DNA from: a virus
Length of the DNA stretch: 37,760 bases
Strand: one strand, 5' to 3'
Virus record (IMG/VR): IMGVR_UViG_3300043431_000055
Location: 1 to 37,760 of that record
Positions 7,256-35,940 of this stretch are shown one piece after another (positions within the stretch are counted from its first letter, which is position 1; the number at the start of each line of letters is the position of its first letter). The notes below the pieces were generated by a model that was not told the origin of the DNA, made no database searches, and saw nothing but the letters and a program-made list of their open reading frames with translations. The position numbers and the translations under genes are program-made.

Positions 7256-7438
7256 ATGCGAGAAGGGTATGAGTACGTTACGTACAACACTGCGCGTTTC
7301 TGGGTTGAGGAAGGTATGTACTCCGTCGAGGACATTGAAAACTTGCTCGTTCAGATGCGCAAGGCCAAGGCAGCACAAGATACAGTTTTAACCAAGGAGA
7401 AAGCAAATGAAAGAACTAACACTACCCAAGAAAGTTAA
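7256..7438 (+). CDS. Hypothetical 60-aa phage protein
   Basis: ATG 7256 lies three bases after the polymerase stop and uses the aaaggggtgatgt region as ribosome-binding site. The N-terminal part (YEYVTYNTARFWVEEGMYSVEDIENLL) is compact and helical; the C-terminus is polar and overlaps the metallopeptidase gene by 32 nt. No family is recognised. Confidence 0.62.
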   Translation: MREGYEYVTYNTARFWVEEGMYSVEDIENLLVQMRKAKAAQDTVLTKEKANERTNTTQES

Positions 7439-7715
7439 GGTGGGGGACAACTGGTACAGCGTTGACATCGCTGACTCCATGCGCAGCAGGATGTACATGG
7501 GCGAGGTGCACTACGCCAAGCGCACCATCACGCTGGCGCGTAAGTCATACCACGGTGTGCCGCTCAAGCTGTCGGCGCTGCACGAGACGTTCTGGCACGA
7601 GCTGACACACGCCATCCTTGAGAGCATGGGCCGCGACACACTGAACAACGACGAAGACTTTGTCGAAGAGTTCAGCGCCCGTCTATCCAAAGCCATTGAG
7701 TCTGCGAGGTTCTGA
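7407..7715 (+). CDS. Small HExxH zinc metallopeptidase-like protein
   Basis: A 102-aa protein with a zinc-binding helix H64-E65-L-T-H68 in the context HETFWHELTHAILESMG, and an acidic downstream helix (DEDFVEEFSARL) that can supply the third ligand. The upstream strand-rich part with YHGVPLKLSALHE fits the minimal SprT/ImmA-type phage metallopeptidase layout. ATG 7407 follows aaggagaaagcaa, the standard start segment here, although it overlaps the previous gene by 32 nt. Possible roles are cleavage of a host or phage protein (ImmA-type) or DNA-protein crosslink handling (SprT-type). The neighbours, DNA polymerase and nuclease, do not decide between them. Confidence 0.78.
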   Translation: MKELTLPKKVKVGDNWYSVDIADSMRSRMYMGEVHYAKRTITLARKSYHGVPLKLSALHETFWHELTHAILESMGRDTLNNDEDFVEEFSARLSKAIESARF

Positions 7716-16797: not shown

Positions 16798-16945
16798 AAA
16801 GGGCGAGGGGTTCTTCATCCCTTGCGTTGCCACAGAGCGCGTCAGAAAGGCAGGGCTTAACGCAGCCCTGCCTCTTCGCATCTTCGACGCCAAAGCATAC
16901 CACGCCATCCACAAAGGAATGAGCGGGGTTTGGTTTTACCGCTGA
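16760..16945 (+). CDS. Small phage protein at the convergent junction (61 aa)
   Basis: ATG 16760 lies in another frame inside the end of the primase-helicase gene; the frame runs to a stop at 16943-16945. The product includes WSRLKKGEGFFIPCVATERV, then KAGLNAALPLRI and ends GMSGVWFYR. The 'G.GFFIP...GVWFYR' frame is typical of a small phage protein with a beta-rich core that I recognise by pattern but cannot name. Its C-terminal 10 bp overlap the stop of the giant gene on the other strand, and the 10-bp hairpin at 16848-16873 lies within it. No good ribosome-binding site is present, so coupling to the primase gene is likely. Confidence 0.6.
   Translation: MQHSYRFPWSRLKKGEGFFIPCVATERVRKAGLNAALPLRIFDAKAYHAIHKGMSGVWFYR
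16848..16873. terminator. Perfect 10-bp inverted repeat, likely bidirectional terminator
   Basis: AGGCAGGGCT (16848-16857) and AGCCCTGCCT (16864-16873) are exact reverse complements around a 6-nt loop. The hairpin is GC-rich and lies 60-90 bp before the convergent overlap. On the minus strand it is followed by TTTCTG; on the plus strand by a C/T-rich run. Because the stem is symmetric it can act on transcripts from both arms. It lies inside the 61-aa gene at 16760, so part of that gene would be downstream of a terminator. Confidence 0.55.
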
Positions 16946-19900
16946 GTTGCAGCCTCTGCCTTGCGCCGTAGGGTCAGGAACCTGTCGGCGGCTTGCTGCT
17001 TTGCTTCCTCCAGCTTGTCGAGTCGTAGGCGCTTTTCCTGCGCGTTCAAGTCGCTGCGCTCCTGTGTCCGGCGCACATCCTCGTTGATACGGCCCACGAG
17101 CTGGCGGTACTGCCCCGCTGCGGAGGACAAGGCCAGCTCAGTGCGGTTGCTGTCGCGGTATGCAAGGGCGTCTTCGCGGCGACCTTCCTTGAGCATTTTG
17201 TTGAAGGTGGTCTTCGCATCCATAGCCTCCTTGGCTTCGCGGTACACCACGTCGGAGTCACCACCGCCGTACTTCTTCTGAAAGGCCGAACCAACCAACG
17301 GCAGGTCAGACGCACGGGCTTCAGCTTTCTCAGCCTTACCTTCGCTCTCAAACAACCCGTTTGCTGCGGCCACCGCAGCGAGAGGCAGCACACCGAAGTA
17401 GCCGCGCACAATGTGCTCGATCTGGATAGGCGACAGGATTGGAACAGCGTTGCTCAGTTGCTTAGCCAGCTCGGTTGTCGTGGCAAGGTAGCGCTCTTCG
17501 GTTGTGTAACCCTGCATACGCTGCGGTTCAACGGAGCCCCCGGTCAGGAAGTTCTTGTTGGTCCACACCTCAAACGCAGGCTTGACGATCTGCGGCATGC
17601 CCATCGACGAGTAGCCGGGGACAGAGCCCAAGAACAAGTCGCGGATTGCTTGCCACTGCGCCTTACCGTCAGTCTCGGCACGCATGCCGTCGACAGCAGC
17701 CACGGCCAGCGAGAAGAAGTAACCAGCTTCGAACGGGATTGGCAGCTTCAGGGGCTCGTCCACGCCGGGGATCGGCAGGAAGAAGTTGGAGTACTTGTCC
17801 CGTGGACGTGCGTTGCGGAACGTCTCGTCGTCTTCCATGGCCATGGCGTACACCAGACCAGTAGCGGTCAACAATAGGGCGTTGTTGAAGAACTTGCGCT
17901 TGATCTGCTGCTGTTCTTCGAACGGCATGTTGCCCCGGGCGGCTTTGACCAACACGTTCAAACCCTGAATCTGGGCGTTGAAGAACGGGATCAGGCGGCT
18001 GGCGTACTGCAGCGTTGGTGACAACCCACGCTTGTAGAAGTTCATGGACTCCATCGTGGCCAAGTCGGCCTCAACTTCTGACAGTCCTTGGGCCTCAGCG
18101 TTCTTGAGCACCAGCGCCAATGTGGCAGCGTCCGCTCGCATCGCGTACCGGTCAGCCGCAGCAAAAACTTTCTCCAGTGCGCCTTGGTCCTTGCCGCTGG
18201 CAATCTGAAGCGCCATTTTCTTCATGTCAGACATGTCGCCTGCGAAGATGTTGGATTGGATCAAACCCTTTTCAAGCAGCTTGGCTTGCATATCACTGCT
18301 GCCCGTGCTCATGCGCAGATACTCAGCGCCTGCCTTGAATACAGACGAGAACACGTTGCTGTTCAGGCCGCCGGTAAAGGCCGCAGCCATTGGTTCGCGC
18401 AGCAACTTGCGGGCAATGTACAGAGGTGTTCGGGTCACGCCAGCACGCAGCCAGTCAGCAGCAACCCCACCCAGTTTCAAGAAGCCGGGCAGCGCAAGGC
18501 TTGCGCCCTCCAAACTCTTAACAACCAACTCGGCCGGAACGCCTTCGGCAAGGGTCCCCTTGGTGTCCACAACAATGTGGCGCTCACCTGTGTCCTTTGG
18601 GTCGTTGGGGTCGGGCTCGTGGAAGAAACGCACGGTGTTAGGGCTGTCCGGCCCGGTGCCTTTAAGGATAGGCATCAAGTTCTTGCGCTTGCCTGTGACA
18701 GGGTCTACCGGACCCATGCCTTTGCCCAGCGCCTGCAAGCCATAAGCCACACTCTTGGTGGCGTTGTTGGTCAGCGCCATGTCAGTCAACAGCAGCGTGT
18801 TCTGCTGGAGGGCTTCGTTCAGGGGCAGCAGCTTTGTCTCACCACCTTTGAGTTCGGCAAGATATGGCTGGCGACGGATGTCACCCACGTTGAACGAGAC
18901 GTTGTTGCCAAAATGAAGCGTGGCGTTACCGTTCTTGACGCGGTAGTACGGCACGTAGTCACCGTCTTTGAGCAATCGAGCCGCTTCCTTCTTGGAGATG
19001 CGCCCGGTGCTGGCGAGGAACTCAATCAAACCCTTGTTGTAGGCGTTGTACTTGCGGCGCACATTCTCCAGCGCAGACTTCAGGGCAGGATTGGCATCGG
19101 CTGCGGCTAATGCCGCTTTCAGTTCTTCCTCCTTAATACCCATCTCACCAAGGTCCAGCTTGGACAAACCTTTGTTTTGTGCACGTTGAGCCACCATGTA
19201 CATTTGCGCAACGTCCATTTTCATCTGTGGACTGTCTTTTGGAATGTCCGCGATGGCATCAAACACCTCACGCGCACTGTTCTTGTTGGTGCTGCGGTAT
19301 CCAACGAACCCCTTGGAGTCTGTGTACTGTTCCAACGTACCGACGTTCATGACGGTGAACATCTGCGCCATCTTCTGTTCAGCTTTGCGAACGTGGTAGA
19401 TGGCCTGCTTGAACAGGCTGTCGTCGCCAAACTTGAGAACATCGCGTAATGCTGCACGCATGTCGACAGCGCCCATTTCAGCTTCTAGCGCAATGTTATT
19501 ACCCAGCTTTTCTTTCAGAGTCTTGGGTTGTGCAATTGTTTTAAGGGCAAGTGCTTCAAGTGCGTCGGTTGGTGCGGTTTGTTTGGAGCGATACGAGGGG
19601 GTCGCTACGCCGGTGGTGCCGGTACCAGCTTTGCCGCCTTCGATGACGTAGTGGCGTGCGTTGGCGATGATCTGATTGACCTGTGCGTCTGTGACCGTGT
19701 CCTTGAAACCAAAGGTGTCGCGCAGCCACTTCTTGATGGTGTCGTAAATCTTACGCATGGCGCTACGGGTATCCGGCGCGTTGGGGTCCAGCTCGGCTTG
19801 CTCTGCCAGCGCTTCTTCCACGGCGGTGTTCTGGTCAAGCGACTTGATCTGTTTCATCTTGGCGTTGGCCGCCTTGCGGATGGCTGCGTTGCCGTTGTAG

Positions 19901-22900
19901 ATGTCGGTCATAGTCTTGGCGTAGGTGCCGCCCAGAACCGACTGCAAACCGAAGTGGCCTGCGATCTCGTGCACAGCGGTCAGGATCACATCGTTGACGC
20001 TGCGCAGGTTGGACGCAACCAAGTAGACCTTGCCGCTTGTTGGATCGTACAGGCCGGGGATTTTGCCCAGCATGTTGTCGCGCTTGGCTTGGTTCAAGAT
20101 ACGAACAGGCAAACCTTTCTCGTCAGCCACCACAATCGTCTGAGGCTTGTTAACCCAACCGTCAGTCAGTGCGTCGTATGCTTTTTGCACCTGCGGAACG
20201 CTCATGCTTGGGCCGGTTGTTTCTGCCACACGGTACAGCACCTGTTTTGCTTTGAGCCGCTCCGCTGTTGTCTTTTGCATATCAGCAAAGCGTTCGGCAG
20301 GTGTCAGCGGAATTTCGACGGCAGTACCGGCTGTGTTGCCCTTGCCCTCGAACAAAGTCTTTTGGGACTTGGCGGCATCACGCGCCTGCGAACGTGTCAG
20401 GGGTTCGCCGGAGGTGGACGCAGCAGTTGTGCGCTCAGTAGCGGCCTTGACTTCTGCTGCGCGAGTCTTTGCTTTTTCTTCGGTGGTCGGGAACGTACGG
20501 CGTGTTGCGCCAGCGGGCGCAGCTTCTTCAATCTTGCCTTCGGAGATCAGGCCCTCCATCCACTCAACGCGAACAATGGCGTCGGCCAGCTTGTTGATCT
20601 GCGACTTCATACCCACCCAGATAACAGGTGTTTTGGCAAGTTCCGCCTTTACCTGTGCCAGCTTTGCTTCAGCGGCATCCAGCTTCGGTCCGATGACATC
20701 GCGCTCGGCAGTTGTCTTGGCTTTTTTGTATGCCTTGTCCAGCGCATCGCGCAGGTTCTGTGTAGGTTCGACCATGTCCTTGGCCATCGCGGCTTTGGAC
20801 TTGTCTTGTGCTTGCTGGATTTGTTTCTCCAGATCAACCACGCGTGCACGATACCCACCAAGAACCTGTGTTGGCACACCTTTAATTTGGGCCTGCTCCG
20901 CAGCAGTCAAGACGGGTGCTTCACCGTTACGCTCACGCGCAAGCAACTGCGCCTCAGTCAGCGCCGGGTACTGTGTGGCTCTGTCGTACAACGGCAGGTT
21001 GTTGAGCGCACGCTCGGAGGGCTTGAGCTGCCCTGTCTCAACCTGCGCTTTACGCTCAGCTTCCTTGACCGCAGCATCTGCACGTTTCTTGTCGGCCGCA
21101 TCTTTGCGCAGGCGTGTCTGCAGTTCGTTGTTTTCTTTCTGCAGGACGTCCAATTCTGTTTGAACGGCCTGCAGTTCTTGTTTGGCTTGGTCGATGCGGT
21201 ACACGGACGGTGCTTTATCCAGCAGGGCCGTCATTTTTTGAACCGCAGCGAACGACTGCATCTGGCCATCCAGTACAGACAGCGCGGAGTTCAGCAACGC
21301 CATGTCGGTTTGCGCCGATTGGAGTTGCTCATTTACAGCGTCAATATCTGCAATCAGCTCCTGCACGCCGCCTTCGTTGTAGCCTTGCTCGATGACTTGC
21401 TTACGCGCTTGTTTGAGGTCTTCAATGGCTCCGGCAAGAAGCATGCGGTCAACGGTCGCTTTGCTTGCGGCGGAACGAATCTCAGCCATGTCACGCTTGG
21501 CCTGTGCTACGTCCTTGTTGGCTTTCAAAACCGAGTCAGCACTGCGGTACTCCGCGTATTGCTGCAAGATGTCCTCAATCTCCGCGATCAGCCCGTTGGC
21601 GCGTTTCTCCAGTGCGGGGATGGCCTGCGCACGCTTGGCGATCTCCTCGTCCCGGCGCAACTGCTGGCGCAAGTTCTGTACGAGCTTGCTCTTCATGAAC
21701 ATCTGGAACGCGCCACGATTGCCTTTGATGGCACCGAGTTTCTCCTGTTCTTCCGGGAACAGTGACTTCTGACGGCCGTCATCACGAGCCGCTTCTTCTT
21801 GCTTGAGCAACGGTTCTTCAAGCTCTTGGGCCAAGGACAAATCTACGGCACGGGCAGATGGGCCACGCAAAGTAGAGGGCGTAGTGTCTGCTACGCGTTT
21901 GGTCACTTCGGCTGCGCCGCGCACACCTGTTCGGCGGTCTTCTGCGTCTGGCTGCGCAATAGGTGTCTTCAGCCCAGACGCGGCTTCTCCGGGAACAGCA
22001 CCAGTGATCTGCTGCACTTGCTTTGTGCCTGCCTCTGTGGGGGCTGTGGTGGATGCCCGCGCTTGTTGTTCAGGCGCTGGTTGGAATGTTTGCAAATCGG
22101 CGGTACGCGCCTGCCCCTTGCGGGGGACTCCTTCGGTGCCACTTTCAATTTTTGAAAGCTGCTCATCAACCAGCGCGAAGTAGTCCTCCCCTGACTTTGG
22201 GAGCGCCTTCTCTACACGTTGCAAAAGACCGACTGCCTCGGGCGACAAGTCGTATGTGGACAGCACTCGGTTGAGTCTGTCCGCCAGCTCTTCCCGAGTC
22301 ACGGGGGCAGTGCCTTCATTGCGGCCACGGAGCTTGAACTCAGCGCCGGGAACGCGGCGCAGGTTACGCGGCTTTTCTTCTTCCGCTGTGAACGTAACAT
22401 CCTCGTCCATCAACTTCTGCTGCATCTGGCCGATAGCCGCCGAGCCCGCAGGCGCAGGTTGTTCAGTGCCAAACAAGCTGAACTGATCCGAGATACCTGC
22501 GGGTGCCGCCGCCATACGCTGAAGACCTGCAAACTCCCCGCCTAGCGCTTGCACACGTTGTGCCTCTTCGGCATCACGTCTTTCTTGTTCCCGCTGCGCA
22601 TCCAGAGCGGCTTGCTCCTCTTCCTCAACGCCAGCAATACGTTGCTGCCCTGCTGCGGTGCCTTTTGCGGCCATAGCTTCGCGTTGACTCTGCGCGGCAA
22701 CAAGCGGCAACTCCAACGTCCGGGGGGTGCCGAAATCGAAACCCTGCTGCCCGCTGGTGGCGGTTTGCAGTTGCGCATCCAGCTTGGCGATCTTTGCACG
22801 TAGGCGCTCGGCCTTATCAGGATCGAAGCCGGGGCCTGCCATGTCGGCCAGCTTCTTTTGCTCTTTATCCAACTGGGCTTGGAGCGCCGCAGGATCGGTC

Positions 22901-24399
22901 TGAACGTCCTCAACACCCGCTTGTTCTAGCTGGCGGTCAAGCTGCGTGATTTCCTTTTGCAGCCCCTTGCGTACTTTGAGCGATGAGTCAAACTGCTCCA
23001 TGTTTGATGCGGCAACGGCATCAGACATCTCTTGCTGATTTTGTTCAAGCAGTTGCTGAGCTTGACGTTTGCGCTCCAAAAGTTGCTCTGGCGGAACAAC
23101 ATCTTGCTCTTGCGTTGTCTTTGCGGATTCTCCAGTTGGGGCGGTCAGTTCAAACTGCTGCGCCTCACGTTGTTGACGCGCTTGCTCCATCAGGCCGGAC
23201 TTTTCAAGACGATCGACTTCAGCGCCAAGGTCCTTGCGGGCCTTTTTGTTTTCTGCAAGCTGCGCAAAAATACCTCGGTTGTGTTCGGCGTCGGAGAACT
23301 CTGTGGCAGAGCCTTTGACAATTTTGCGCCGCTGAGATTCCAGCGCCTTCTGTTCTTCCAAAAGACGCTCGTTGTTTTGCAGCACTTCGAGTGCGTAATC
23401 AGGCGTTTGCTTTGCGGCTGCTTCTTTCTCTTTGGCAACGCGCTCTTGTTCGGACCGTGCGGCTGCGGCCTTGAGCTTGTCTTCTCTGTCAGCCTTGGCG
23501 GCTTGAGACTGCGCACCACTGCGCTCGATGTAACGGCCTGCGGGGGCAAGAGTGCCGCCCAACACGGCTCCGCCGATGAAGCTGTCGATGTACTCTTTGC
23601 GGGCTTCTGGGTCGGTAATGTTCAGCCCGGCTTGCAAGCGCTCCAGCACTTGTTGCGTGGCTTCAGTGACGCCTTCTCGGCCTGCGGTTGCGCCAGTCTT
23701 GGCGGTGTAGTCCATGATGGTTTTGCCAAGCGTCTGACTGGCAAGAGCCCGAGCTTGCTCGGTTGTCAGCTTAGAGCCCACGGAGCCGAACAGCTTGCCG
23801 ATACCGGGAACCAGCGCCATGGCGGCAGTGTCAATCAGTGCTTGTGGGATAGCAGCGCCAAGGGCCGCAGCTCCGCTGGCTTCTTGCAACGACTTGCCCG
23901 TGCCCAGTTGAGCGCCGAGGTTGGAGCCTGTGAACTGGCCAGTGGAAACAGCGCCTGCGCCCAGCAAACCCAGACCAGCAGCGACAGGGGCAGACACCGG
24001 AGCGGCCAAGGCGGCAAGACCTGCGGCTGCCGGAGCAACCATGTACGGCACGGAACCGCCAGCTGTCTCTTTCAGCTTTTGCCAAGGGGACTCAACCCAA
24101 CTGTCTTCTGTGGGGGTGAAGCGTGCCTGTGCACGCTTTTGCGCAGCTTCGTATTCTTGCTGCGCCTTGGCCTCATCCATCAGGCCAGCCTTACCGGCGG
24201 TCAGTGCGGCTTCGCCTTTGAGACGCTCAAAGCCTGCGGCTGCGGCAGCTTTGAAACCCTTGGTGTCTTCCTTGGGTTTCTCTTCTTTTTTAAACGCATC
24301 GGGATAGAGTTGACGGGCTGCCATCATCCCCTCTAAGGGCGTTTGGCCCTCTTTCAATTCAAGGTACGCGCCGCTGGGGAGTTGGATGTAATCAGCCAT
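16936..24399 (-). CDS. Giant polyvalent virion protein with HExxH metallopeptidase motif (2487 aa)
   Basis: Starts at ATG 24399 (weak site ggatagaaa) and fills 7.5 kb. Residues 115-152 are Gly/Ala-rich and hydrophobic (SVPYMVAPAAAGLAALAAPV), a possible membrane-inserting stretch. Long charged, Gln-rich coiled-coil regions follow to about residue 1350. A zinc site H1477-E-I-A-G-H1482, with AVEEALAEQAE about 45 residues later (E1528/E1529) as probable third ligand, marks a gluzincin-like peptidase. The C-terminal third, including WLRAGVTRTPLYIARKLLRE near residue 1985, matches large polyvalent protein domain LPD38. Such proteins are known or inferred to be packaged and ejected with DNA. By size and position I infer an internal virion protein that helps cross the envelope and may cleave host proteins. 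No transglycosylase motif was found. Confidence 0.88.
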   Translation of the reverse strand: MADYIQLPSGAYLELKEGQTPLEGMMAARQLYPDAFKKEEKPKEDTKGFKAAAAAGFERLKGEAALTAGKAGLMDEAKAQQEYEAAQKRAQARFTPTEDSWVESPWQKLKETAGGSVPYMVAPAAAGLAALAAPVSAPVAAGLGLLGAGAVSTGQFTGSNLGAQLGTGKSLQEASGAAALGAAIPQALIDTAAMALVPGIGKLFGSVGSKLTTEQARALASQTLGKTIMDYTAKTGATAGREGVTEATQQVLERLQAGLNITDPEARKEYIDSFIGGAVLGGTLAPAGRYIERSGAQSQAAKADREDKLKAAAARSEQERVAKEKEAAAKQTPDYALEVLQNNERLLEEQKALESQRRKIVKGSATEFSDAEHNRGIFAQLAENKKARKDLGAEVDRLEKSGLMEQARQQREAQQFELTAPTGESAKTTQEQDVVPPEQLLERKRQAQQLLEQNQQEMSDAVAASNMEQFDSSLKVRKGLQKEITQLDRQLEQAGVEDVQTDPAALQAQLDKEQKKLADMAGPGFDPDKAERLRAKIAKLDAQLQTATSGQQGFDFGTPRTLELPLVAAQSQREAMAAKGTAAGQQRIAGVEEEEQAALDAQREQERRDAEEAQRVQALGGEFAGLQRMAAAPAGISDQFSLFGTEQPAPAGSAAIGQMQQKLMDEDVTFTAEEEKPRNLRRVPGAEFKLRGRNEGTAPVTREELADRLNRVLSTYDLSPEAVGLLQRVEKALPKSGEDYFALVDEQLSKIESGTEGVPRKGQARTADLQTFQPAPEQQARASTTAPTEAGTKQVQQITGAVPGEAASGLKTPIAQPDAEDRRTGVRGAAEVTKRVADTTPSTLRGPSARAVDLSLAQELEEPLLKQEEAARDDGRQKSLFPEEQEKLGAIKGNRGAFQMFMKSKLVQNLRQQLRRDEEIAKRAQAIPALEKRANGLIAEIEDILQQYAEYRSADSVLKANKDVAQAKRDMAEIRSAASKATVDRMLLAGAIEDLKQARKQVIEQGYNEGGVQELIADIDAVNEQLQSAQTDMALLNSALSVLDGQMQSFAAVQKMTALLDKAPSVYRIDQAKQELQAVQTELDVLQKENNELQTRLRKDAADKKRADAAVKEAERKAQVETGQLKPSERALNNLPLYDRATQYPALTEAQLLARERNGEAPVLTAAEQAQIKGVPTQVLGGYRARVVDLEKQIQQAQDKSKAAMAKDMVEPTQNLRDALDKAYKKAKTTAERDVIGPKLDAAEAKLAQVKAELAKTPVIWVGMKSQINKLADAIVRVEWMEGLISEGKIEEAAPAGATRRTFPTTEEKAKTRAAEVKAATERTTAASTSGEPLTRSQARDAAKSQKTLFEGKGNTAGTAVEIPLTPAERFADMQKTTAERLKAKQVLYRVAETTGPSMSVPQVQKAYDALTDGWVNKPQTIVVADEKGLPVRILNQAKRDNMLGKIPGLYDPTSGKVYLVASNLRSVNDVILTAVHEIAGHFGLQSVLGGTYAKTMTDIYNGNAAIRKAANAKMKQIKSLDQNTAVEEALAEQAELDPNAPDTRSAMRKIYDTIKKWLRDTFGFKDTVTDAQVNQIIANARHYVIEGGKAGTGTTGVATPSYRSKQTAPTDALEALALKTIAQPKTLKEKLGNNIALEAEMGAVDMRAALRDVLKFGDDSLFKQAIYHVRKAEQKMAQMFTVMNVGTLEQYTDSKGFVGYRSTNKNSAREVFDAIADIPKDSPQMKMDVAQMYMVAQRAQNKGLSKLDLGEMGIKEEELKAALAAADANPALKSALENVRRKYNAYNKGLIEFLASTGRISKKEAARLLKDGDYVPYYRVKNGNATLHFGNNVSFNVGDIRRQPYLAELKGGETKLLPLNEALQQNTLLLTDMALTNNATKSVAYGLQALGKGMGPVDPVTGKRKNLMPILKGTGPDSPNTVRFFHEPDPNDPKDTGERHIVVDTKGTLAEGVPAELVVKSLEGASLALPGFLKLGGVAADWLRAGVTRTPLYIARKLLREPMAAAFTGGLNSNVFSSVFKAGAEYLRMSTGSSDMQAKLLEKGLIQSNIFAGDMSDMKKMALQIASGKDQGALEKVFAAADRYAMRADAATLALVLKNAEAQGLSEVEADLATMESMNFYKRGLSPTLQYASRLIPFFNAQIQGLNVLVKAARGNMPFEEQQQIKRKFFNNALLLTATGLVYAMAMEDDETFRNARPRDKYSNFFLPIPGVDEPLKLPIPFEAGYFFSLAVAAVDGMRAETDGKAQWQAIRDLFLGSVPGYSSMGMPQIVKPAFEVWTNKNFLTGGSVEPQRMQGYTTEERYLATTTELAKQLSNAVPILSPIQIEHIVRGYFGVLPLAAVAAANGLFESEGKAEKAEARASDLPLVGSAFQKKYGGGDSDVVYREAKEAMDAKTTFNKMLKEGRREDALAYRDSNRTELALSSAAGQYRQLVGRINEDVRRTQERSDLNAQEKRLRLDKLEEAKQQAADRFLTLRRKAEAATQR

Positions 24400-26156: not shown

Positions 26157-27260
26157 TCAGATTTTGGACAGGGCCAGCTCAGCCAGACCTGCCGATTTTT
26201 TCTTCTTGCCTTTGGGCTCGGAGCTTACAGTGCCGCCCTTGGCGTAACTTTTCATGACACCGCCAGCGGCTGCTCTCGCGCCACCGCCCATAAGGTACGC
26301 GCCGGCAAGCGATGTTCCTGCGCCAAGGATTTGCGAACTTGCGCTCGGCCCGGGAGCGTACATGGTTTGCGTCGAGCCCGACGGCGTGCCGCGCAGCAAG
26401 TTGGATTGGAACTCCAGCTGCTGGTATGGGAACTTCTTCTGCGCCAAAAAGTCTTCGTACTGCTGACCAAGGATGTTCTGAACCTGTTGCTGTTGCTGAG
26501 TGCCGTAGCCCGCCTGCAACTTGTTGACATCCATCCCCTGCTGGAACTGCTGACCCGCACCTGTGAGCGCTGTCTGGAGCCCTTGCAAGCCAAGACCCGC
26601 GCCGTACTGACGTGACTGCTCACGAAGCTGCTGCTCCGTGTTGAATTGGTTTTGTGCGCGGCCGTAAGCGTCCTGCAAACCACGGGCCTGAATGTCGCCC
26701 TTTTGGGTTGCCAAGTTGCGAGCCGCTTCTGCGTCCATGATGGCCTGACGGCTGCCGCCAAAAGCACCGGACTGGACGGCTTGCGCGCCGCGCTGAGTGC
26801 CTGCAATATCGGCGGTTCGCTGCGCTTCACGCTGCTGGATGTCCACCACGTTCTGCATGTACGGGTCCATGTACTGACCCGCTTGCGCACCGAACTGGCC
26901 AGTGGCGTAGGGGTTGTACTGGGTGTTGAGTGCCTTATCGACAGCTTGACCTGTGGCGGCCGAGGGAGCCATCGCCCCAGCGCCTTGGAATGCTTGCTGC
27001 TGCAGTGGCGTGAACTGTGCAATGCGCTCGCCGCCGTAGGCTTGGTATGGGGCCTCAGAAAGCGCTGCCCCCTTACCCAGAACCTCCTGTGCGTATGGCT
27101 TGGCCCAGTCTGGCAGGTCTTGGGTTTGTGTTGTCTGAGCCGGTTGGCCTCCACCGCCGTCGTCGCCTTGCGGCTTGATCTTGCGATCACCGTAGTGCTT
27201 GAAAGCGTGCTCGGGCAAGTCTGGAATATCCAGATGCAGCTTGGTGGAGTTCATTCTCAT
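26157..27260 (-). CDS. Virion structural protein, Gln/Ala-rich (367 aa)
   Basis: The start ATG 27260 overlaps the GNAT gene stop by 4 nt (ATGA); ATG 27254 is a second option. The central region reads YMDPYMQNVVDIQQREAQRT, then SGAFGGSRQAIMDAEAARN, a pattern I recognise from podovirus structural gene clusters next to large internal proteins. It is Gln-rich and predicted helical, ending in a Gly-rich stretch (LAGAYLMGGGARAAAGGVM) and a lysine-rich tail. Likely a tail or internal-core protein. Function is not known; assignment is by family pattern and gene order. Confidence 0.72.
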   Translation of the reverse strand: MRMNSTKLHLDIPDLPEHAFKHYGDRKIKPQGDDGGGGQPAQTTQTQDLPDWAKPYAQEVLGKGAALSEAPYQAYGGERIAQFTPLQQQAFQGAGAMAPSAATGQAVDKALNTQYNPYATGQFGAQAGQYMDPYMQNVVDIQQREAQRTADIAGTQRGAQAVQSGAFGGSRQAIMDAEAARNLATQKGDIQARGLQDAYGRAQNQFNTEQQLREQSRQYGAGLGLQGLQTALTGAGQQFQQGMDVNKLQAGYGTQQQQQVQNILGQQYEDFLAQKKFPYQQLEFQSNLLRGTPSGSTQTMYAPGPSASSQILGAGTSLAGAYLMGGGARAAAGGVMKSYAKGGTVSSEPKGKKKKSAGLAELALSKI

Positions 27261-27664
27261 AGCTCAATCCTCATCACATTGTGGGTCTTGTTCAGCCCCA
27301 TTTTCTCGTACATTGGGACCAAGTTGTCTTGGCACCAGCATTGTGCTTTTGTGGCTCCGTTCAGGCGCATCCACTGCATGGCCTCTTCAAACACATGCTT
27401 GCGGACAATACTCTTGCCACCCATCAAGTGGGCATGTGCCACGCGGTGCATCGGCAAGTCTTGAAAGCTGATCGTCACCGCGCCCGTGATGCCCTCACCG
27501 GGCTCTTCCCAAACCAACAAGCTGTACGCCCCCGTGCGAACGCCGTACTCGACCTGCTCAATGGTGATCGAGCCGGGATCAATGTCAATGGCCTTTTGCA
27601 GCAACGGCGCGGCCAACGGCCAGATGGATGGCATGAGGTTTGGTGGGACTTGGTGCAGTGGCAT
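27257..27664 (-). CDS. GNAT-fold acetyltransferase-like protein in virion cluster
   Basis: A 135-aa protein starting at ATG 27664, two bases after the preceding stop. Pattern: N-terminal helices, strands ITIEQVEYGV and AYSLLVWEE, GAVTISFQDL, a helix with VFEEAMQWMRLNGAT, then KAQCWCQDNLVPMYEKMGLNKTHNVMRIEL. The last part, with a conserved Tyr and 'K-x-GL/F..T..V-x-R', is typical of GNAT folds found in podovirus structural clusters. The acetyl-CoA loop (Q/R-x-x-G-x-G/A) is not clear (GGKS is present), so it may be a structural relative rather than an active enzyme. It is coupled to the downstream gene by ATGA. Confidence 0.65.
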   Translation of the reverse strand: MPLHQVPPNLMPSIWPLAAPLLQKAIDIDPGSITIEQVEYGVRTGAYSLLVWEEPGEGITGAVTISFQDLPMHRVAHAHLMGGKSIVRKHVFEEAMQWMRLNGATKAQCWCQDNLVPMYEKMGLNKTHNVMRIEL

Positions 27665-29442: not shown

Positions 29443-29750
29443 GTTTTCACTTTCAGTACGTTACCTGCGGTGGTATCGTAGTAGATGTCCCCCACCCGGA
29501 GGTTACTCAAATCTGCCTGTGTTGGCAAGCTCACCGTGAAGGTGTTGGGGGTTGTTGGGTCAGGCTGAACAAAGCTCAAGCCCGCCACAATCGTCCCGTT
29601 CACCCGCTGAGTGGCTGCCGCGATCGGCCCTGCGTTGTCCAACTGGTTGAAATACAGGCGCAAAACGCTTGTAAGCTGGTCCATGAACCTTGCGTCGTAT
29701 TCTACCGGGGCAATGGGTAGCTGGGGGGCTTTGACGTTCTTTTGACTCAT
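29439..29750 (-). CDS. Small virion protein (103 aa)
   Basis: The start ATG 29750 shares one base with the upstream stop (TAATG). The protein has VEYDARFMDQLTSVLRLYFN, QLDNAGPIAAA, then a strand-rich half with VGDIYYDTTAGNVLKVKT. I have seen this pattern in structural clusters of podoviruses, adjacent to the GRGPDSTLVHM-type gene. It is probably a small structural or assembly protein; no catalytic residues. It is coupled to the downstream virion gene by a 4-nt overlap and preceded by an inserted homing-type endonuclease. Confidence 0.68.
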   Translation of the reverse strand: MSQKNVKAPQLPIAPVEYDARFMDQLTSVLRLYFNQLDNAGPIAAATQRVNGTIVAGLSFVQPDPTTPNTFTVSLPTQADLSNLRVGDIYYDTTAGNVLKVKT

Positions 29751-30379
29751 TATGCAATCCCCCAGTGCAGGCGCTCAAGTTCTTTTCTGGCGGCAATAGC
29801 TTCTTCAACAGTTGCTGTAAGCGCCGCGTAAAACTTCTTTTTATTCACCGTTATTTCGGCAAGCCACTTACCACCGCGCCGATTTACTCCAACATGCCCA
29901 GACTCGCTGTTTTTTCGGACGCGGATATTGCGGGCCTGCGTTGGCAGATCGGCCCATCGGCAGTTTCCCGGAACGTAGTTGCCGTACGGATCAATGCGAT
30001 CTAAAGTCTCAGTTCCAATAGGTTCCCCCATGTCTCGTGCAAAACACAAGTAGTCGTGCCATGCCGGGTGTACCTGCATCCCAACTGCGCCGTAGCGCGG
30101 GTAGTCTTTGTCGTTTGGGTTGTTGCAGCGGCGCATCATTGCACGCCATGTGTTGTAGGATGGTTTGTTCCACCCGCCATGCTTGGTGATTTTTTCTTTT
30201 AAAAAACAACCACACGAAGTAGTGTTACCAGTAACAAGCCCACCAGACACCACCACAGCTTCTTTGCCGCAGTCGCACAGGCATCGCCACATAACTTTTT
30301 TCGAGGCGCTGCGCCCGGCATCCTCAAGCACAAGCAGACGCCCAAATCTCTGGCCTTTTCGATCAATAAATTTCGGCAT
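29750..30379 (-). CDS. HNH homing-type endonuclease with AP2-like DNA-binding domain
   Basis: A 209-aa protein starting at ATG 30379 with AGGAGG four bases upstream (30384-30389); a longer in-frame start (30424) would overlap the promoter and is rejected. Residues 1-60 hold a zinc ribbon: C33, C35, C37 in RCLCDCG, then SCGC with C56 and C58. The middle has the HNH-type LDRIDPYGNYVPGNCRWAD, and the C-terminus, SGHVGVNRRGGKWLAEITV followed by a TVEEAIAARKELE helix, is an AP2/ERF-like DNA-binding unit. This combination is typical of free-standing phage homing endonucleases. It interrupts the run of virion genes and has its own promoter, so it is best read as a mobile selfish gene. All HNH positions look intact. 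Confidence 0.9.
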   Translation of the reverse strand: MPKFIDRKGQRFGRLLVLEDAGRSASKKVMWRCLCDCGKEAVVVSGGLVTGNTTSCGCFLKEKITKHGGWNKPSYNTWRAMMRRCNNPNDKDYPRYGAVGMQVHPAWHDYLCFARDMGEPIGTETLDRIDPYGNYVPGNCRWADLPTQARNIRVRKNSESGHVGVNRRGGKWLAEITVNKKKFYAALTATVEEAIAARKELERLHWGIA

Positions 30380-30401
30380 AAGCCCTCCTAAAAGAGCTTT
30401 T

Positions 30402-30431
30402 ATTGTACACTGGAATCTGTGCATAAGTCAA
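30402..30431 (-). promoter_or_regulatory. Sigma-70-type promoter of the homing endonuclease
   Basis: On the minus strand, TTGACT (plus 30426-30431) and TACAAT (plus 30402-30407) are 18 bp apart, five of six matches to each consensus. The transcription start would fall about 15 bp before the AGGAGG site of the endonuclease. The -35 element overlaps the stop codon (30428-30430) of the upstream tail gene, so the endonuclease can be expressed independently of the late operon. Confidence 0.72.
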
Positions 30432-34027: not shown

Positions 34028-34531
34028 TCAGTTTCCCAGCTTGTTGGTTGTTGCCCTTTTCAGCATGGCCATCTCAGAGCGGAGACTTGCAGCGGTGCTG
34101 TCAAGGTCTTGCTTGAGCGAGGTCAGCTTGGTGTTCACCTCGCGGTTCATGCTTTCAACAGCAGCTTTTGTCTCCCGGCTTGCTGCGCCCGACTCAGTCG
34201 CAGCGCCAGCGGCCACTGCTTTGGTTTCCCTTGCCAAGGCAATGGCATCGGACGATTTTTCAGCAATACGAACTGCCTGCTCAGCAATAGCAAGCTGGCG
34301 CTCTTTGACCGATTTGAGTTCGATTTCAAAGGCTTGAACCTTCTCCTTGAATTCGGTGTCGTCATATGGTTTAAACTTGTCCACCGCCTCGATGGTTTTG
34401 TTCATCTTTGACCAAAAATTAATCCCCGTATAAGCCGCTCCGCCGATAATCGGCAGGAATGTCACGATCAAGCCAAGAATCATCTGGCTTGATAAGCTCA
34501 CTGAAAAATTCTTGTTGTCTTCGGATGCCAT
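34028..34531 (-). CDS. Membrane-anchored coiled-coil protein, i-spanin candidate (167 aa)
   Basis: ATG 34531 lies 113 nt inside the upstream Cys-rich gene. The topology fits an i-spanin: short cytoplasmic N-terminus, one TM helix at about residues 17-36 (MILGLIVTFLPIIGGAAYTG), then about 130 residues of charged and Ala-rich helix with heptads (KVQAFEIELKSVKERQLAIA; SLKQDLDSTAASLRSEMAML). It lies next to the lipoprotein at 33769, the expected o-spanin. Together they would span the periplasm and fuse membranes at the last step of lysis. I do not see Rz sequence motifs, so this is a topology and context call; a structural coiled-coil protein is the alternative. Confidence 0.6.
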   Translation of the reverse strand: MASEDNKNFSVSLSSQMILGLIVTFLPIIGGAAYTGINFWSKMNKTIEAVDKFKPYDDTEFKEKVQAFEIELKSVKERQLAIAEQAVRIAEKSSDAIALARETKAVAAGAATESGAASRETKAAVESMNREVNTKLTSLKQDLDSTAASLRSEMAMLKRATTNKLGN

Positions 34532-35537
34532 CGGGTATCTCCTGTGCGAGCGAAATTGGGTTAATCAATATTGGTTGTTTTGGCAGCTTCTGCTCCAGCT
34601 TGCGCATGAATTCCACACTCTTTGCCGCTACCGAGGCAGACGCACTCGTACTTTGAGCCGCAGTGTTCGCAGCCGTTTGTTCTGCCGCCCTGTTCCCGCT
34701 GTCCAGCACTTCGACCATTGTATTGCTTATGGGCGCTCCGGTCTCTGCCGCACTCTCCTGAGTCATCATCTGCGCAGGCGTCGTTGGTGCAGTTGCAAGT
34801 ACGCTCTGCGTGACGCGGACACTTATGACGGAGATTGGGCTGATGACTGACATGGTGTTCGTCGGATTGCTGGTCGCTTTCACGCAGCTGTTGGATGTAG
34901 TCAGCCAGTTTCCTGACCACACCGTTGCGCCATACGGATTTGGGCAGCTGCTCGTTTGCTGCTGGAGGATTTGACCCGTGTATCCAGTTTGGCATGACAG
35001 TGTTTGAACCTGTGTGGTGATGTGGCAAGTTGGTGGGTTCCATCGGCATGAATCAGCCGTCAGTTGCCATTGACCTTGGATTGGTTGCCCATACGGGTCT
35101 GGGCAGGTGTTTTGCTTGGTGTACGTTTTGCCGCCGTTTTGGTTGGGTTGGCAGGCGTCTTGACGGGTTTCGACTGTGGCGACACAAGTGGGTGGAGCTG
35201 GCTGGCAGGTGCCGCTTTCCTTGAACCACCCTGAGTCAACTGCCGCTCCGCCAACGCAAGTGCTCGTACGCTTCCATGTCTCACCCCCAATTTGGTTAGG
35301 TCCACACGATCTGGACTGCGTTTCTGAGCTGGGGGTGCAGGCTGGTGCGGGCGGAACGTAGTTGGGACAGAAGGCTTGCTGCCAACTTGCGTCATGTGCT
35401 CCGGGCGCACAAGCCCAGCAGGTTGGGTTGGCCGTGCAGTGCCCTGCGAACCCCGGCCGCGCAGGACCCGAGCAATAACAGCTTTGAGCCAGCGCATTAC
35501 TTGTCCACAGAAGCAGAAGTAGCAGGAACTTTGCCAT
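34419..35537 (-). CDS. Secreted protein with three four-Cys repeats (372 aa)
   Basis: I choose ATG 35537, giving a clean signal peptide (MAKFLLLLLLWTSNALAQ, cleavage after ALA or AQ); 35597 is an in-frame alternative. The mature N-terminus has seven cysteines in residues 20-57. Then follow three repeats, each with four cysteines: 67/78/94/111, 118/129/145/164 and 171/182/198/218, spaced 11, 16 and 17-20 residues apart. Each contains a T/S-C-x...N/T-G-x-T pattern and ends in a Trp plus xxSC/xxTC (QWQLTADSC; NWLTTSNSC), reminiscent of thrombospondin-type units. The C-terminal 150 residues are low-complexity, then helical. It overlaps neighbours by 41 and 113 nt. A periplasmic or surface role is likely; function unknown. 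Confidence 0.72.
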   Translation of the reverse strand: MAKFLLLLLLWTSNALAQSCYCSGPARPGFAGHCTANPTCWACAPGAHDASWQQAFCPNYVPPAPACTPSSETQSRSCGPNQIGGETWKRTSTCVGGAAVDSGWFKESGTCQPAPPTCVATVETRQDACQPNQNGGKTYTKQNTCPDPYGQPIQGQWQLTADSCRWNPPTCHITTQVQTLSCQTGYTGQILQQQTSSCPNPYGATVWSGNWLTTSNSCVKATSNPTNTMSVISPISVISVRVTQSVLATAPTTPAQMMTQESAAETGAPISNTMVEVLDSGNRAAEQTAANTAAQSTSASASVAAKSVEFMRKLEQKLPKQPILINPISLAQEIPDGIRRQQEFFSELIKPDDSWLDRDIPADYRRSGLYGD

Positions 35538-35940
35538 ATAGCTTTGTGAATCGTTCTGGGTGACGGCGAATCCACTCGTTCTGAGCAGCATCTCCAATCA
35601 TGCCAAGTGTTGGGCACGGGCTTCCAGACTCCATCATGGCATCCCACACACGGATGTCGGCGCACAGCACCGCAACCGCTGTGACTTTTAGGCCGAGATC
35701 ATTCAGCGTTTTTGCCAGCTTGATGCGCTCACAATTGCCATCACTCAGCACCGTGCCACCAGAAATTCCGATGACTGTCGACGACACCGCACCCGACACA
35801 GGAACAGCGCAAATATCGGAACCCATGGCAGACAGGCTTGGAGCCATGGCTGTGGGAGGCGGTTGGTTCTTGTACGTGATTGTGGTGTCCTGTGCATAGA
35901 CCAGCGCAGGGGCCAGCAGGAGCAGGACGAGGTATTTCAT
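35497..35940 (-). CDS. Secreted phage protein with signal peptide (147 aa)
   Basis: ATG 35940 overlaps the tail fibre stop by 4 nt. Signal peptide MKYLVLLLLAPALVYA with probable cleavage before QDTT. Mature part: Pro-rich TITYKNQPPPTAMAP, a region with GSDICAVPVSGAVSSTVIG and a C-terminal domain with CERIKLAKTLNDLGLKVTA, VAVLCADIRVW, and EWIRRHPERFTKLYGK. The pattern of alternating strands and helices with four cysteines looks like a compact periplasmic domain. I recognise this type of gene next to Cys-rich repeat genes in other phages but do not know its role. It ends 41 nt inside the following gene. Confidence 0.66.
   Translation of the reverse strand: MKYLVLLLLAPALVYAQDTTITYKNQPPPTAMAPSLSAMGSDICAVPVSGAVSSTVIGISGGTVLSDGNCERIKLAKTLNDLGLKVTAVAVLCADIRVWDAMMESGSPCPTLGMIGDAAQNEWIRRHPERFTKLYGKVPATSASVDK

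Follow-up and report, generated by a model that had tools for sequence, protein, structure and literature searches.

A Giant LPD38-Type Phage Protein with an Exchangeable Zincin Cassette Bordered by Class-Specific Linker Tags

The window analyzed here, a virus fragment of 37.8 kb (37,760 nucleotides; IMG/VR record IMGVR_UViG_3300043431_000055) that derives from an uncultured, probably short-tailed freshwater phage, encodes a giant protein, P0001, which is a further member of the polyvalent class. The computational analysis shows the architecture of this protein, a zincin-like fold with invariant ligands, repeated swapping of the zincin cassette among relatives, and short tags in the linkers on both sides of the cassette that are specific to the class of zincin it holds. 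The tags on its two sides fit each other, which suggests, short of proof, a protease that divides the protein into fragments. The LPD38 domain, the HExxxH zincin, and the idea of autoprocessing are already known; indeed, a proposal dating from 2017 has polyvalent proteins autoprocessed by their zincins (Iyer et al. 2017, PMC5512222). We found no conserved flanking site for autoprocessing named in that article, nor did we find in it the combination of class-specific flanking tags with a swapped slot that is never empty. This combination was likewise not found in the open-licence literature; since the search covered open-licence papers, an earlier description elsewhere is possible. If the tags are cut sites, the autoprocessing proposal becomes directly testable, and the exchange of cargo in giant ejected proteins without broken delivery would be explained.

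As Table 1 shows, P0001 consists, in order, of an N-terminal part, a variable helical middle, the zincin, and an LPD38-containing C-terminal part. The first-pass annotation, made from the sequence of the window, had described the 2487-residue reading frame, a hydrophobic Gly/Ala N-terminal segment, and an LPD38-type C-terminus, and all three are borne out. The hydrophobic segment contains 24 Ala, 16 Gly, and no Arg in 99 residues, with a peak at residue 128; on this composition it is a candidate membrane-active part. LPD38 scores 86.9 bits against a curated cut-off of 27 bits (Pfam PF18857), and the domain was detected in 15 of 15 diverse relatives. The middle is helical and rich in Ala, Gln, and Glu. 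The "very long coiled coils" of the annotation stand as far as its helical character goes, but heptad-like stretches are clear only within residues ∼929–1126. The Pfam scan returned LPD38 alone and no second domain, PHROGs and NCBIfam gave nothing useful, the sole PADLOC match (LmuB, E 0.34) was disregarded, and a sequence search of the PDB gave no match. The methylase and helicase domains of DarB-like antirestriction proteins were not found in P0001 with Pfam, PHROGs, PADLOC, or NCBIfam.

Table 1. Features of P0001 and of the neighboring cassette genes, with positions in the window
Feature	Residues	Positions	Strand	Basis or remark
ORF P0001, LPD38-type polyvalent/ejection protein	2487 aa	16936–24399	−	ATG start
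N-terminal region, conserved	1–410	23170–24399	−	identity 44–69% in most relatives, minimum ∼31%
Hydrophobic Gly/Ala-rich segment	117–215	23755–24051	−	composition and hydropathy; conserved among relatives
Variable helical middle ("cargo")	411–1386	20242–23169	−	alignment with first-round relatives
Upstream tag LYRV, candidate cleavage/recognition site	1388–1391	20227–20238	−	low-pLDDT linker
Class A zincin domain	1393–1588	19636–20223	−	predicted model and fold matches
HEIAGH (HExxxH)	1477–1482	19954–19971	−	H1477, E1478, H1482 invariant, 65 relatives
E1528–E1529, glutamate helix	1528–1529	19813–19818	−	E1529 and A1532 invariant
Downstream tag YRSK, at C-terminal region junction	1603–1606	19582–19593	−	low-pLDDT linker
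C-terminal region, conserved	1607–2487	16939–19581	−	53–85% identity among relatives
LPD38 domain	2194–2369	17293–17820	−	Pfam PF18857, E 2.5e-24
Cassette neighbor	559 aa	24469–26148	−	upstream in 50/64 relatives
PHROG "DNA ejection protein"	367 aa	26157–27260	−	phrog_4287 E 1.3e-18; upstream in 64/64 relatives
Gly/Ala-rich cassette protein	591 aa	27667–29442	−	upstream in 63/64 relatives
Virion structural protein	647 aa	30428–32371	−	phrog_3287 E 9.7e-53

The motif that the first-pass annotation read as a zinc peptidase site is present and invariant, with E1528/E1529 located 51–52 residues past it, although HEIAGH has the form HExxxH and thereby exceeds the classic HExxH by one residue. This variant has already been described for the zincin MPTases of phage polyvalent proteins (PMC5512222). 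An HExx(x)H motif arises in 0.75% of shuffled P0001 copies, which, together with its invariance across relatives, argues against a chance occurrence. Across 65 class A and class B domains (classes are defined below), seven columns are invariant, namely H1477, E1478, H1482, G1484, E1529, A1532, and E1536, that is, the HExxxHxG motif plus the last three residues. Structure prediction around residues 1400–1560 had been put forward as a check on the zinc site. The model of the trimmed domain (residues 1393–1588), built with 65 sequences, is zincin-like, with a mean pLDDT of 84.6 and core values of 93–98. Its elements run helix, strand, helix, two strands, active-site helix, and glutamate helix, the order described for polyvalent MPTases (PMC5512222); HEIAGH lies on model helix 76–111 and E1529/A1532 on model helix 131–144.

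Comparison of the model with known structures in a second aligner gave known zincins as the highest-Z rows. M34 zincins were best (Z 8.1), followed by ArdC (Z 7.0, 3.6 Å over 115 residues, 16% identity), MATCAP (Z 6.5), IrrE (6.4), and PPEP-1 (6.4). Foldseek, by itself, gave no match to this model at E < 0.001, so the fold relation is distant; an earlier model that included the tails (pLDDT 64) had no useful Foldseek match. The ligands in ArdC are H201, H205, and E229; E228 serves to orient a histidine, and the glutamate helix carries an ExxA signature (PMC7213743). Because of the analogy to E229 and E228, E1529, which forms an ExxA with A1532, is likely the third metal ligand, and E1528 would be a second-shell residue. 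The model, the fold comparison, and the invariant ligands agree, and they support the assignment as a gluzincin-type zincin peptidase that would bind metal and be catalytically active.

A first search of environmental metagenomes returned 53 virus loci, which have in common residues 1–410 and ∼1604–2484 and vary in the length and sequence of the middle. L002 matches the P0001 middle over its full length, and L049 and L031 match the greater part; the other first-round relatives have a middle of different length and unrelated sequence. After four further scans the set comprised 220 proteins with the C-terminal part, or 103 once those with ≥97% identical C-terminal parts were removed. The slot holds a zincin with HExxH or HExxxH in 103/103. 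These fall into class A (HExxGHxGL, n = 43, including P0001), class B (HEVGxHxG, n = 39), and class C (HELTHAA-like, n = 19), and two relatives hold class B and class C zincins together. Since three scans had used zincin queries, the 43 representatives fetched by whole protein or C-terminal part only were examined separately; they divide into 16 A, 12 B, and 15 C, and the zincin is absent from none of them.

On a FastTree of the C-terminal part the zincin class changes at least 33 times, and well-supported branches alone force 21 gains or losses of class A, 19 of B, and 14 of C; the tree is a quick one, and recombination within the C-terminal part would inflate the count. The exchange is evident in single proteins as well. 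Most of the P0001 middle recurs at ∼76% in L049 and L031, which nevertheless carry a class C zincin, whereas L009 has a zincin 88% like that of P0001 but a different middle and an ART domain. In L009 (3514–12645) this ART-PolyVal domain (E 4.7e-26) forms an insertion that follows the zincin and precedes the downstream tag. The two proteins with both a B and a C zincin, L181 and L183, have them in opposite orders and are possible intermediates of cassette exchange. The class B zincin had no match in phage records, and bacterial genomes searched with the C-terminal part yielded no real prophage relative and one weak Pirellulales match.

The tags were recognized in the linkers that border the slot. 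In P0001 the upstream tag occurs in the context VLYRV, 88 residues ahead of the zincin motif, and in the model with tails both tags lie outside the zincin fold. Class A proteins have an aromatic-Arg word before the zincin and YR[ST]K before the C-terminal part; class B proteins have FSRG and LLFSR in the corresponding places. In the final counts, 40/43 class A proteins carry the upstream word ([FY]R[TSVIP]) and 40/43 the downstream one, with no FSR-like tag among them, while 37 of the 39 class B proteins carry the upstream word ([FLY]SRG) and 37 the downstream FSR tag, with no YRT-like tag. No crossover of tags between classes A and B is seen. Class C is mostly tagless (0–2/19). The patterns were noticed post hoc and widened (LSRG, YSRG, FSK) with the extension set in view; when the discovery loci (L002–L054 and P0001) are excluded, the counts are 27/30 at each end for class A and 25/27 at each end for class B. 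In 15 tree-independent A/B pairs, tag and class agree in 13–14 and conflict in none (p 1e-4 to 5e-4, about 2e-4).

In the first class B set, FSR occurs almost exactly twice in ∼3000 residues. Rare variants are LSRG/LSRK in L158, YSRG/YSKG in L173, and YSVG/FSVK in L199. The class C protein L315 (3614 residues) has only two [FY][AS]R words; YARG lies 95 residues ahead of the zincin motif, and YARA stands at the C-terminal part junction. The downstream tag keeps to that junction despite 170–450 residues of extra cargo after the zincin. In L010, L015, L016, and L017 an insert of ∼170 residues separates the class B zincin from the tag, and it starts with an RRTFLRGA stretch resembling a Tat signal. 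The tag word alone is not specific, since the folded C-terminal part of P0001 has [FY]R[STV] as well (GYRS at 1701 and YYRV at 1819). Within class A, similarity between the two tags of a single protein (15.26) hardly differs from that between tags taken from different class A proteins (15.12). As a general trait of zincin proteins beyond this family the tags were rejected, since 48 further class C proteins stayed at the background level. P1 DdrB was also rejected as a yardstick, as its zincin profile is unrelated and its LSR words lack specificity.

We give roughly even chances to the reading that the zincin is a self-processing protease with cut sites in its own cassette. P0001 would then be an N-terminal delivery part, cargo, a zincin protease, and the LPD38 C-terminal part, packaged and then ejected together. 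The zincin would cut near LYRV and near YRSK, releasing a delivery/cargo piece of ∼1390 residues, a protease of ∼215, and a C-terminal piece of ∼880, either before packaging or after ejection. More tentatively, the phages of this group may use a polyprotein strategy, in which interchangeable protease cassettes bring their own cut sites and self-excision separates freely recombinable cargo and delivery parts. Published cases point in both directions: N4 vRNAP, TraC1, and ArdC stay unprocessed through packaging or transfer, while P1 DdrB is reported as processed (PMC5512222). The main weakness of the self-processing reading is linkage, since the tags sit at the ends of the exchanged cassette and their agreement with class could follow from that position. 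The mostly tagless class C, the absence of extra likeness between the two tags of a class A protein, and the low specificity of the tag word also weigh against it.

Taken to its limit, linkage would make the tags passive recombination marks, the ends of an exchanged DNA cassette with no cut-site function, which we consider very improbable. The sequence after the tag does follow the lineage of the C-terminal part and the preceding sequence that of the cassette, and the Ser of the class B tag is always encoded by TCN, never AGY, which indicates common descent of tag and cassette. However, the 37 upstream class B tags are written in 20 different DNA words. Because synonymous codons vary to this extent, the constraint appears to act on the amino acids, and a DNA recombination site is argued against. 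The tags are also conserved islands within otherwise variable linkers, again pointing to selection at the protein level, and the same word is present at both ends of the cassette. An unlikely but different role for the domain is that of a metal-binding scaffold for packaging or translocation, with dispensable catalysis and tags that serve as linker signals for unfolding or assembly. It has precedent in N4 vRNAP, whose zincin region is needed for encapsidation while the protein stays uncut (PMC5512222), and in ArdC, whose catalytic center is dispensable for its conjugation function, the E229A mutant being still functional (PMC7213743). Against these precedents, every relative scored has HExxH or HExxxH, and none of the 65 aligned A and B domains departs from the ligand Glu, a degree of conservation beyond what a scaffold requires.

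The first-pass annotation raised the possibility of a counter-defense protease that acts on host targets, and the analysis gave no specific support for this. An effector that cleaves host (defense) proteins once ejected, with class swaps reflecting changing host targets, is named as a possibility in PMC5512222, and frequent swapping would suit an arms race. Anti-defense domains do occur on related polyvalent proteins (ART in L009, methylase/helicase in a Vibrio phage, ddrB-ParB in an Aeromonas phage), but none was detected in P0001. All 103 relatives keep the slot filled, while cargo comes and goes, and the class-matched flanking tags would have no role; we therefore regard the effector as doubtful. 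Self-processing fits better than counter-defense because the zincin is always present, in three interchangeable classes, with class-matched tags at both ends.

P0001 resembles the catalogued polyvalent proteins (PMC5512222) in its giant size, the combination of LPD38 with an HExxxH zincin, proposed cotransfer with DNA, and proposed autoprocessing. It differs in having no other catalogued domain beyond LPD38 and the zincin; L009 has ART-PolyVal in addition. The DarB-like gp69 of Burkholderia phage JC1 (PMC9144972) shares the LPD38 C-terminal part, at an identity of only ∼22%, a zincin (HEAFH) that matches the class B profile (E 3.9e-6), and a similar position after small virion genes. In contrast to P0001, it has 4515 residues with transglycosylase, LPD3, and methylase/helicase domains. 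A polyvalent protein of Vibrio phage 1.232.O (AUR96762.1) aligns with P0001 over residues 1395–2477 (24%, E 2.5e-49), which takes in a class A-like zincin and LPD38; unlike P0001, it has 3292 residues, helicase, methyltransferase, and GNAT modules, the motif HELVVH, and no clear tag pair. Protein p69 of Aeromonas phage phiARM81mr likewise has LPD38 and a class A-like zincin, but with ddrB-ParB and methyltransferase domains. Its tag-like words are of another class, with RFSK ∼92 residues before the motif and KFSQ and KMSQ after the zincin. ArdC of plasmid R388 (PDB 6sna, 6i89) shares the zincin fold, the active-site helix, and the ExxA of the glutamate helix, whereas it is small, has an ssDNA-binding N-domain and an HExxH motif, and acts in antirestriction without need of catalysis.

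The gene for P0001 is the last of a conserved, presumed ejection cassette (Table 1). The first-pass annotation had called the protein ejected-type, and homology and gene context make packaging of P0001 in the virion, followed by ejection along with the DNA, most likely; gp69 was identified in CsCl-purified JC1 virions by mass spectrometry with 51 unique peptides (PMC9144972). The JC1 gene order resembles that of the window (head closure, small, GNAT, ∼330 aa, 510 aa, giant), and no sequence similarity to the JC1 neighbors was detectable outside the C-terminal part and zincin of the giant protein. Within the cassette, 27257–27664 (−) encodes a GNAT-like acetyltransferase (weak phrog_1249 match, E 0.03) with similar genes in 16/64 relatives; JC1 has an acetyltransferase gene in the corresponding position. 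Among the structural genes, 29750–30424 (−) encodes 224 residues that by eye look like an HNH/AP2-type mobile endonuclease and have no Pfam match.

Two further genes of the window may be mentioned. The product of 34419–35597 (−) is a 392-residue Cys-rich protein with repeated Cys/Gln-rich units, a signal-like start, and no Pfam match. Finally, 7407–7715 (+), in the early region, encodes a stand-alone protein of 102 residues with HELTH and a downstream Glu; it is weakly SprT-like (Pfam E 0.001, below the cut-off) and is a second, small zincin candidate.
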